From Candidatus Gastranaerophilales bacterium (GTDB lineage: Bacteria; Cyanobacteriota; Vampirovibrionia; Gastranaerophilales; Gastranaerophilaceae): a DNA stretch of 64,000 nt. The translations under genes and the position numbers were made by a program. The notes beneath the pieces were generated by a model. It had not been told where the DNA came from and made no database searches. It worked only from the letters and a program-made list of their open reading frames with translations. Within the stretch, counting starts at the first letter, position 1. Each line of letters starts with the position of its first letter. Shown here one piece after another: positions 1 to 39,470 of the stretch. The stretch covers positions 1 through 64,000 of the forward strand of contig CALUVR010000009.1 of NCBI GenBank assembly GCA_944324285.1, read 5' to 3'.

Positions 1-280
1 AGCCTTTTGAAAAGTGATGGATGAAAAGTGAAGAGCGAGGGGTCAGTTTAGTTGAAAAGTTGAACGGGGGAATGGTTAAAAGGCTTCTTTTTTCCATCTC
101 CCTTTGGGAGAGGGGAGGAGTGAGGGACTGTGACGTCATTGCGAGGCGTCAGCCGAAGCAATCCAGCCTTTTGAAAAGTGATGGATGAAAAGTGAAGAGC
201 GAGGGGTCAGTTTAGTTGAAAAGTTGAACGGGGGAATGGTTAAAAGGCTTCTTTTTTCCATCTCCCTTTGGGAGAGGGGA
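1..280. repeat. 164-bp tandem duplication
   Basis: Bases 1-116 recur without visible change at 165-280, a period of 164. The unit holds a hairpin of the form CTCCC-ttt-GGGAG and the tail of a dispersed module that begins GTCATTGCGAGGCGTC (135-182). No credible gene is present. The first copy may begin before the window, so the copy number is a minimum. Confidence 0.9.
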
Positions 281-27338: not shown

Positions 27339-28259
27339 TTAATCTTGAAAAAGTTCACTTGAAAGATAACGTTCTCCGCTATCCGGAAGAATTACAACAA
27401 TAAGTTTTCCATTATTTTCAGGTCTTTTTGAAAGTTTATTGGCAGCCCACATTGCAGCTCCTGATGAAATCCCAGATAAAATACCTTCTTGTGTTGCGAG
27501 TTTTCTTGCCGTTTCCATAGAATCTTCATCCGATACAGGGATAATTTCATCCACTACATTACGGTCAAAATTCTCCGGAACAAAATTTGCTCCTATACCT
27601 TGAATTTTATGACTGCCAGCAGGTTTTCCCGCCAGAACCTGCGAGGTAGCCGGCTCTACCGCAACAGCTTTAATTTTCGGATTTTTTGCTTTTAACCCTT
27701 TGGCAATTCCCGAAATTGTTCCGCCGGTCCCGACACATGCAACAATTATATCAACTTTTCCGTCCGTATCATTCCAGATTTCTTCTGCGGTTGTTAAGAT
27801 GTGGCTTTCCGGATTTGACGGGTTCGAAAACTGCTGCGGGATAAAGGAATTTTTAATTTCTCTATGTAGTTCCTCCGCCTTATCAACAGCCCCCTGCATG
27901 CCTTTTGAACCATCAGTTAAAACAAGTTCAGCACCGTAAGCTTTTAAAAGAAGTCTACGCTCAAGACTCATAGTTTCCGGCATTGTCAAAATCATTCTGT
28001 AACCTTTTATTGCACACACCATAGCAAGCCCGATACCTGTATTGCCGCTTGTCGGTTCGATTATGACAGTATCTTTATTTATAAGTCCTGCCTCTTCCGC
28101 TCTTTTAATCATATTATAAGCCGGTCTATCTTTAATAGAACCGGCAGGGTTCCGCGACTCTATTTTAGCTGCAATAATTGCCTGCCCGTCATTTAATTTA
28201 TTTATTTTTACAAGCGGAGTTCCGCCGATTAATTCAATCAAATTTTCTGCTATTTTCAT
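27339..28259 (-). CDS. cysK: Cysteine synthase (O-acetylserine sulfhydrylase)
   Basis: A PLP enzyme of 306 residues that makes cysteine from O-acetylserine and sulphide. The PLP lysine is in [11 protein letters not shown], the substrate loop is [10 protein letters not shown], and the phosphate-binding loop is [13 protein letters not shown]. It works with CysE (2469), which is 24 kb away. I chose the ATG at 28259 because AAGGAAAATT precedes it and the protein then begins [16 protein letters not shown]. The longer frame translates a repeat. Confidence 0.95.
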
Positions 28260-28289: not shown

Positions 28290-28678
28290 CCCCTCAACCT
28301 TAATTCCTCTCCCGCAGGGCGAGGGAAATTGTCTCAAATACTCCATCAATATTGTTGTCAATATCATTATTCCAAAAACGAAGTATTTTAAATCCTCTTG
28401 ACATTAAATACTTGGTTCTTTCTTCATCATATTTTTGCTGCTCCGGAGTATTATGACCTCCTCCATCCAATTCGATTATAAGCATTTTTTGTATAGCTAC
28501 AAAATCAACTATATATTTCCCAATTTTATATTGTCTCTTAAATTTTATATTCATAAATTTGCTATTACGAACTAAATTCCAGAATTTAATTTCTTGCGGC
28601 GTCATATTTCTTCGCAAATGTCGGGCGAGATAGAAACGTTTCCCTCTCCCTACGGGAGAGGGAGCAAGGGTGAGGGGG
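28290..28678. mobile_element. DUF559 cassette bounded by 37-bp inverted repeats
   Basis: The left arm at 28290-28326 starts CCCCTCAACCTTAATTCC, and the right arm at 28642-28678 ends AGGGTGAGGGGG. Aligned as inverted copies without gaps over 37 bases, they differ at six positions. They enclose only the endonuclease domain. Both arms belong to the C-rich palindrome family found alone at 3.2, 39.2, 41.6 and 52.2 kb. The arms are translated, and the left one supplies the stop codon. No target-site duplication is obvious. Mobility is inferred. Confidence 0.6.
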
Positions 28679-29688
28679 CTAACAAAATGATTTCTGAAAC
28701 CTTTTTTATGAGAAATTGTGCGCTCAATTTGCGCTAATTTCTTTGATAATTCCGCATAATTTACCGCCGCTTTATTCGGATAAATCTCATACTTTCCTCT
28801 GACATCCTCCGCCGTCACATTCGGCATTACAACATTAGCTCCTGCCTGCAGTGCCATTATCCGCCCTTCAGAATTTAACGTTTCCATAGCAGTGGTCGCC
28901 GGAATATTAATATCCGGAAGCAGAAGCCGCGTAAGCGCCATAACCTTCAACGCCAGCGTAAGATTGCCGCATTCGCTATCTCGTAATGGTGTATGAGGAT
29001 GCGGGATTAAAGGGCCAATTCCAATCATATCAGCATCAAGTTCTTTAAAAAACAAAATGTCATCAGCAAGCGATTCAAGAGTCTGCCCCGGAAGCCCCAC
29101 AAGACAGCCCGTTCCCGTCTCAAAGCCCAATTCTTTTAAATCATATAAACATCTTTTACGATTTTCTAAGCTGGCTTTCGGGTGCATTTTTTCGTATAAG
29201 CCTTTGTCCGTAGTTTCAATTCTCAAAAGAAATCTATCCGCGCCTGACTTTTTCAGAATCTTATATTCCTCATAACTTCTCTCGCCTATGCTTAAAGTAA
29301 CAGCGACATCCAGCTTTTTTATCCCGGCTACAATTTCTGCAAGATAATCCGCTTTAAACGAAAAATCCTCTCCTGATTGAAGAACAATTGTTTTATATCT
29401 GGAAGCGGCTGCATGTTGTGCAAGCTCTAAGATTTCTGATTTCTCCAATCTATACCGTTCAACAAGATTATTCTCTGCGCGTATTCCGCAATAAAGACAA
29501 TTACATCGGCAGTAATTTGAAAACTCGATTAAAGCCCTCAAATGAACTTCATCCCCGACAAATTCACGCCTTACACTATCGGCAGCCTGAAAAAGCTCCT
29601 CATTAATCCCATCATCCGCCAGAAGCGAAACAAGTTCACCTTTTGTCAAGGTATGAAACTCTTTTGCCTTCTCAATAAGTTCATTCAT
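28300..29688 (-). CDS. hydE: HydE radical-SAM maturase fused to DUF559 endonuclease
   Basis: A 462-residue fusion. Residues 1-336 are HydE, the radical-SAM enzyme for building the [FeFe]-hydrogenase H-cluster: cluster cysteines C60, C64 and C67 (CRCNCLYC), then [19 protein letters not shown] and [14 protein letters not shown] near its normal end. Residues about 352-462 are a DUF559 (Vsr-like, PD-(D/E)XK) domain with [17 protein letters not shown]395, E406, D408 and LRFWNND. Residues 337-351 ([13 protein letters not shown]) and the last codons (ALRERN and stop) are translated repeats. TATAAT lies six bases before the ATG and there is no ribosome site. No other hydrogenase gene is present here. 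Confidence 0.88.
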
Positions 29689-29694
29689 AGTTGA

Positions 29695-29700
29695 ATTATA
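29695..29700 (-). promoter_or_regulatory. -10 box of hydE, leaderless type
   Basis: TATAAT lies six bases upstream of the hydE ATG. Transcription should start at or next to the A of the ATG. Confidence 0.55.
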
Positions 29701-29739
29701 CAACAAACCATAAAATATGTTATCGGAAGAAACAATCCC

Positions 29740-39205: not shown

Positions 39206-39470
39206 TTAGTTGGGCAGGTATGCCCAACCGACAGAACCCCTCACCCCTACCCCTCTCCCTCAAGGGGAGAGGGGATAGGATTCTGCGTCATTGCGAGCGT
39301 CAGCGAAGCAATCCAGCTTTTTGAAAAAGTGATGCGTGAAGAGTGAGTGGGGAGATAGGTCGGTTGGGCATACCTGCCCAACTACAATCCTCACGCTTCA
39401 CTCATCACTCTTCACACGTCTAAAAGTTGAATTCTTTCGAACTTCGCCCTCAGAATGACGTATTTTTACT
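39206..39470. repeat. Composite repeat cluster
   Basis: The modules in order are the GTTGGGCA/TGCCCAAC hairpin (39209-39231), the C-rich palindrome (39237-39280), GTCATTGCGAGCGTC (39287 on), AGTGATGCGTGAAGAGTGAG, and an inverted GTTGGGCA hairpin (39361 on). The remainder to 39649 holds only the upstream region of the next gene. Confidence 0.85.

Follow-up and report, generated by a model that had tools for sequence, protein, structure and literature searches.

DUF559 endonuclease genes from many phyla lie, far more often than chance allows, between copies of short REP-like hairpins, and in related genomes the resulting cassettes are present or absent at the same sites of conserved genes. We give a somewhat better than even chance to the reading that these cassettes are minimal selfish elements, in which a DUF559 nuclease carried between REP-like hairpins would spread in the manner of a homing gene, without splicing, and would leave solo hairpins behind as deletion relics. 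The window, that is, the whole stretch of 64,000 nucleotides analyzed here, belongs to the genome that we call G000 and carries such a cassette with the following features.

28290..28677, minus strand: whole cassette (arm-DUF559-arm) at the 3' end of the hydE-like gene, hydE-cysK junction
28639..28677, minus strand: 5' arm (left, in gene sense), tail CCCCTCACCC plus stem-loop CCCTCTCCC-GTA-GGGAGAGGG, from the inverted-repeat search
28642-28662: palindrome inside the left arm, from the palindrome search
28290..28328, minus strand: 3' arm (right, in gene sense), stem-loop plus tail GGTTGAGGGG, from the inverted-repeat search
28305-28325: palindrome inside the right arm, from the palindrome search
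28315..28629, minus strand: DUF559 domain (PF04480), predicted Vsr-/EDxHD-fold nuclease, Pfam E 5.5e-36, residues 360-464
28687..29688, minus strand: HydE-like radical SAM protein, the fusion host, from the domain search
27339..28259, minus strand: cysK-like PALP enzyme, downstream, from the ORF list and domain search

A single ORF (28300-29706, minus strand) joins the radical-SAM/BATS HydE-like N-terminal part to the C-terminal DUF559 domain. The arms, each built of a stem-loop (CCCTCTCCC..GGGAGAGGG) plus a tail (CCCCTCACCC), lie 310 nt apart and enclose the DUF559 domain as ungapped inverted copies, as a preliminary description of this DNA had proposed; it gave them 37 nt with six mismatches, but we measured 39 nt at 85% complementarity. 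Its claim that both arms are translated also stands, since the left arm encodes a 13-residue stretch on the 5' side of DUF559 and the fusion ends, its last codons and stop included, in the inner part of the right arm. The cysK-like frame stays open across the right arm as well (ORF to 28367). Searches of the window against Rfam gave no match, including none to a group I or II intron ribozyme, and the insert is an open frame continuous with that of its host. Transcription terminators were set aside as an explanation of the arms because these lie inside open frames, and the idea that the arms evolved to be stop-free for translation was rejected because their six-frame stops match those of shuffles (263 versus 256.8 +/- 13.3).

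The only other DUF559 gene of the genome (contig C12) sits in frame inside priA between inverted arms of the same family, and one frame encodes, in order, the 3' DNA-binding domain, an arm, DUF559, an arm and the helicase of PriA. In-frame embedding was observed directly in further proteins: besides HydE, which carries the cassette at its end, the hosts include PriA, PrmA, Mfd (L081), a leucyl-type class I tRNA synthetase (L085), a GHMP kinase, an M14 peptidase and an Eco57I-type methylase, and two homologous UvrD-type helicases (recB/uvrD type; L047, L098) have cassettes in roughly matching regions. Each insert comprises the arms and a nuclease domain of ~110 residues, nothing more, and a Pfam scan of nine cassette-bearing host ORFs found no match to a protein-splicing domain, which sets these inserts apart from inteins. 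Homing into host genes is not the only life style of the family, as many other DUF559 genes stand alone in intergenic positions. We note that one Rickettsiales single-cell genome (AM-377-L16) has in-frame cassettes in both mfd (L081) and the leuS-type gene (L085), and that the mfd cassette sits within a tandem array of in-frame palindromes.

The association between nuclease and arms was surveyed at 100 non-redundant DUF559 loci, taken from relatives and from a genome-wide scan across many phyla. At a single fixed score, inverted arms were found at 71% of the loci, and a comparable inverted pair at 5 of 2500 random nearby positions (0.20%) and at 6 of 593 other ORFs (1.0%), so that chance does not explain the enclosure. 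When either orientation was allowed, the proportion was 85% versus 1.1% in the control, and with a stricter score 77% versus 0.08%. Two results had been named beforehand as telling against the pairing, namely arms absent around most DUF559 genes and arms just as frequent around unrelated genes, and neither was obtained. That the ends are inverted holds for ~70% of loci, but the direct orientation was favored at about a third, and several isolates have a single arm; a few of the direct-orientation loci proved to be duplicated neighboring genes and not hairpins. In independent sets, arms were found at 12 of 14 DUF559 genes on viral contigs, and all seven isolate records examined had a REP-like hairpin on at least one side, on both sides in Deinococcus and Picosynechococcus and on one side only at E. 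coli ycjD and in N. gonorrhoeae, Azospirillum, Shinella and a broken Klebsiella copy. The survey also bears on an explanation that we regard as quite improbable, in which the palindromes owe their spread to a RAYT or other factor, with DUF559 genes tolerated or captured within repeat arrays: the direct-oriented arms at a third of loci would suit it, but the rarity of enclosure among other ORFs would not.

Arm sequences vary between genomes and phyla. Most combine a stem-loop with a G- or C-rich tail, some have a second mini-hairpin, and in G024 an extra hairpin, GGCACTTCGTGCC, is identical on both arms. At L062, from a horse feces MAG, identical 104-bp complex palindromes with nested hairpins stand on both sides of DUF559. 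Members of a divergent DUF559 subclade (L041-L044, in G005, G011 and G004) have directly oriented copies of the CCTCCCTT..AAGGGAGG family at their flanks. Solos of this family were also seen in G000, a genome in which no nuclease of this subclade was found. In the E. coli sapF-fabI region (L132, L135), a row of REP-like palindromes lies downstream of ycjD, the DUF559 gene of that species. We discarded ycjD as a clean pair of empty and occupied sites, because strains without it have an RND/MFS efflux operon beside sapF, and phages as the main vehicle, because only 18 relatives were present among 2.9 million viral contigs.

A series of occupied, remnant, solo and empty alleles was observed directly in relatives. 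For hydE, the full cassette is present in G000, G001, G007, G024 and the independent MAG L052 (five genomes, at least two genera), a left-tail remnant in G004 and G008, and an empty site, for which the preliminary description had suggested searching sister strains, in six genomes: G005, whose HydE is 95% identical, G010, G011, G012, G002 and G003. For priA, the cassette is complete in G000, G001, G004 and G008, reduced to the right tail in G011, and absent from G002, G003, G006, G009 and G012, while G010 retains one solo palindrome whose left tail CCCCTCACCCC runs directly into the right stem, with an unchanged right flank. This is the structure that would result from a deletion joining the C-rich strand of the left tail to that of the right stem, and the helicase part of the G010 gene is 97% identical to that of G001 at synonymous positions. 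The claim that solos are relics is therefore convincing for G010 when set against the full cassette of G001, but the comparison is one case only. In prmA, the G007 cassette sits between ..KEC and DFELNTADK.., and all 11 other aligned relatives read ..NNADC-EFELNTADK.. or a close variant. Occupied and cassette-free alleles of one site, a combination by which homing elements are recognized, thus occur among relatives at priA, hydE and prmA. No obvious target duplication was seen at prmA or hydE.

We further compared the divergence of the inserts with that of their host genes, scoring synonymous identity as third-position identity at codons with identical amino acids. In priA, the insert and its flanks matched at 139/144 (0.97) versus 572/696 (0.82) positions between G000 and G004 (p=1.6e-6), at 135/141 (0.96) versus 543/693 (0.78) between G000 and G008 (p=9.6e-8), and at 143/146 (0.98) versus 634/753 (0.84) between G004 and G008 (p=5e-7). 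In all three pairs, the identity of the flanks drops with distance from the insertion, and the same gradient was seen when G004 or G008, which carry the full priA cassette, was paired with G011, which has a remnant. The cassette-free priA pairs G003-G012, G003-G006 and G012-G006 showed no gradient, and the G000-G011 pair was flat. At hydE, the L052 insert shares 76-78% identity with the inserts of G001 and G000, whereas HydE itself is 49-50% identical. In the nuclease tree, the hydE nucleases form one clade (support 98) and the priA nucleases another (87). Taken together, the excess similarity of the inserts, the flank gradient and the site-specific clades indicate that one and the same site has been entered in separate species; the inserts have moved more recently than their host genes diverged, with a flank gradient like that of co-conversion, as is the mark of homing. 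Ordinary recombination that carried the insert along could also yield the excess similarity. By the modeled fold and by analogy with the known behavior of homing genes (PMC3943268), we infer that the encoded nuclease may drive the invasion.

These alleles and divergences also weigh on a reading that we consider very improbable, namely that HydE-DUF559 and PriA-DUF559 are domestic fusions, inherited vertically for a host function, whose arms serve as structural or regulatory hairpins. The catalytic residues and the frames are conserved, and the HydE fusion recurs across genera, which speaks for such a function. Against this, the inserts are far more alike at synonymous sites than the host genes are, unrelated host genes are used, congeners have full-length hydE and priA free of the cassette, and of two sister genomes one (G001) has both cassettes and the other (G010) neither nuclease.

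For the DUF559 protein, an AlphaFold2 model built from a 29-row alignment reached a pLDDT of 92.9, compared with only 53.8 for a single-sequence model. It matches 3hrl (Z 16.9), the catalytic domain of I-Bth0305I (3r3p, Z 12.0) and Vsr (1cw0, Z 10.2), and the relation to I-Bth0305I was also found by Foldseek (2.3e-5) and by sequence (E 3.6e-5). E14, D43, E54, D56 and H60 (alignment numbering), all residues of catalytic type, are invariant in the 29 sequences. As the preliminary description had stated, DUF559 is thus predicted to be a Vsr-like PD-(D/E)XK nuclease, and its modeled fold, related to that of I-Bth0305I, is what one would expect of an EDxHD/Vsr-like homing endonuclease. YcjD had earlier been predicted as a PD-(D/E)XK nuclease (PMC1189080), and one DUF559 gene has already been assigned to the EDxHD homing family (PMC9403480). 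Known EDxHD homing enzymes, including I-Bth0305I, have additional DNA-binding regions (PMC3943268). No such region is present in our inserts, and we therefore call them homing-like and do not assign them to that enzyme family; the protein by itself does not account for target specificity.

As shown by the palindrome search, the arms belong, as had been claimed, to a dispersed C-rich palindrome family. The core CCCTCTCCC-N2-7-GGGAGAGGG has 90 exact sites in the 2.03-Mb, 55-contig genome and its reversed control none, and about ten such palindromes lie within the window, including the following solos.

39251..39273, plus strand: solo palindrome of the cassette-arm family
94, 258, 3164, 3451, 41529, 41666, 52255: further solos of the cassette-arm family in the window

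The palindrome gave no match in Rfam. At window positions 94-278, two palindromes spaced 164 bases apart follow identical 25-base upstream sequences (GGAATGGTTAAAAGGCTTCTTTTTT), and this segment is a tandem duplication of a solo-containing unit. Solos far outnumber cassettes in G000, where they form same-direction arrays, mixed with other repeat families, in intergenic blocks of several hundred bases; the solo-bearing blocks are absent from G011. Two blocks (L139 10450-11050 and L150 9500-10150) are composite arrays with units of ~235 bp or 140 bp, in which the hairpin families are CCCTCTCCC, CCTCCCTTACAAGGGAGG with CGGCACCAGTGTGCC, and a GCTGGATTGCTTCGGCTAACGCCTCGCAATGAC repeat. Dispersed solos that match the arms are present in G000, partly present in G011, G023 and G031, and nearly absent from G015, G017 and G024. 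We rejected the idea that solos are MITE-like inverted pairs that lack the nuclease, since neighbors run in the same direction.

At least three exact palindrome copies were found in 7 of 14 relatives with DUF559 versus 1 of 45 without it (p=7e-5), whereas RAYT presence was no predictor of palindromes (4/20 versus 4/39, p=0.42), and RAYT was discarded on this ground as the driver of the solos. The genome has a single Y1 gene, a RAYT-like transposase gene of 178 aa (G000:C39:5603-5968; L136 1860-2396, minus strand), with no C-rich palindromes of the cassette-arm family in the surrounding 2.7 kb. The presence of this gene and the composite intergenic arrays shared with other repeat families would fit a spread of palindromes by a RAYT with DUF559 genes as passengers; the palindrome-free surroundings of the gene, the absence of a correlation and the palindromes of G005, G031 and G001, genomes with no RAYT match, speak against it.

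The preliminary description had drawn a parallel to REP/RAYT, and a transposon of that style, which we think unlikely, though less so than the passenger explanation, would have the nuclease act on the arm hairpins in single-stranded or cruciform form, excise the cassette, reinsert it anywhere and mobilize solos in trans. Consistent with this, the arms are hairpins, multicopy solos are enriched where DUF559 is present and RAYT presence does not explain the enrichment, and solo-bearing blocks are present or absent between G000 and G011. However, different species have, at hydE and at priA, nucleases of a clade specific to that site, target duplications were not seen at the sites inspected, the solos run in direct arrays and not in inverted pairs, and some cassette genomes lack solos. 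A further exception to the co-occurrence is G043, from the same order, with 29 exact palindromes and neither a DUF559 nor a Y1 match. The parallel thus holds in that hairpins flank a nuclease gene, but the data on conserved genes favor repeated invasion of the same site and point to homing-type spread as the stronger reading over scattered transposition of the REP/RAYT kind. Likewise, the proposed minimal mobile element recurs across phyla and is present or absent in sisters at hydE, priA and prmA, but the trans-mobilization of solos as a class, read from sequence, is only correlative and can be put no more strongly than that the nuclease may play a part.

In the homing-type mechanism that we propose, a Vsr/EDxHD-fold endonuclease of ~110 residues, with a copy of a REP-like hairpin on each side, would cut cassette-less alleles of a conserved gene at a favored position (the hydE 3' end, priA or prmA; in other bacteria mfd, leuS or a recB/uvrD-type helicase). 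Repair from a cassette-bearing copy would bring the cassette in and drag some flank along. With no intron or intein, arms and nuclease are read in the frame of the host gene and would be tolerated in its protein as a loop or tail. The C-rich strands of the two arms, which are nearly identical, would later recombine and so remove the nuclease, leaving a solo palindrome or a tail remnant. Here we infer the cleavage and its target, and each gain or loss could in principle have run in the other direction. The flat G000-G011 pair, the direct arms at about a third of loci, the single arms of several isolates, the lack of an extra DNA-binding region and the scarcity of solos in G015, G017 and G024 count against homing. 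A wider proposal, which we hold tentatively and judge to fall short of an even chance, is that DUF559 with palindromic arms forms a widespread and categorically new selfish class, a splicing-free coding homing element that is tolerated in essential proteins by being translated, and that its deletion relics or trans-mobilized arms are the source of the C-rich CCCTCTCC/CCCTCCCC palindromes of many phyla.

Now that one nuclease family is seen to lie between C-rich palindromes much more often than chance allows, and that empty, full and relic alleles exist at defined sites, the origin of these repeats becomes testable, also in laboratory E. coli, a species carrying ycjD. If the homing-type reading is true, genes of this type can live in essential proteins (PriA, Mfd, leucyl-tRNA synthetase) without a splicing device, and annotated DUF559 "fusions" may be parasites and not enzyme domains. 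The literature that we searched names no mobilizing gene for the C-rich palindrome families found beside DUF559 in many phyla. The pairing had been put forward as undescribed, and in the accessible text of the literature searched on DUF559, REPIN with nuclease, EDxHD and YcjD, the DUF559 family is not linked to palindromic repeats. In Legionella, DUF559/transposase segments have been described as recombination hotspots (PMC12308824).

Among known systems, the E. coli YcjD and N. gonorrhoeae NGO0050 (PDB 3hrl) proteins are DUF559 members with a REP-like palindrome beside the gene, but their genes are free-standing, with a hairpin at just one end. The Rickettsia palindromic elements (named in PMC10969869) are, like other coding palindromes, inserted in frame within protein genes. 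To our knowledge no nuclease gene is associated with such elements, whereas here the palindromes bracket one. Homing-endonuclease inteins resemble the cassettes in lying in frame in conserved, often DNA-processing genes (PriA, Mfd, RecB/UvrD type, LeuRS) and in having empty alleles, but the cassette carries no splicing domain. Set beside a classical insertion sequence, with its strict terminal inverted repeats and target duplication, the cassettes show arms of mixed orientation and no obvious target duplication at prmA or hydE. With REP/REPIN-RAYT systems the cassettes share short hairpin repeats, in some genomes dispersed as solos, and a flanked gene for a single-domain endonuclease; in place of a Y1 (HUH) transposase beside the repeats, however, they encode DUF559, with its predicted PD-(D/E)XK/Vsr fold, and they occupy recurrent sites within essential genes, whose frame they keep. 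With EDxHD homing (I-Bth0305I) and free-standing homing genes they share the predicted nuclease fold, the occupancy of the same sites in conserved genes and a flank gradient like that of co-conversion, but they lack an intron, an intein and an extra DNA-binding region, are framed by REP-like hairpins and are translated within the host protein. The element thus resembles a homing gene crossed with REP-like repeats, and it has a fair chance of meriting a separate class.
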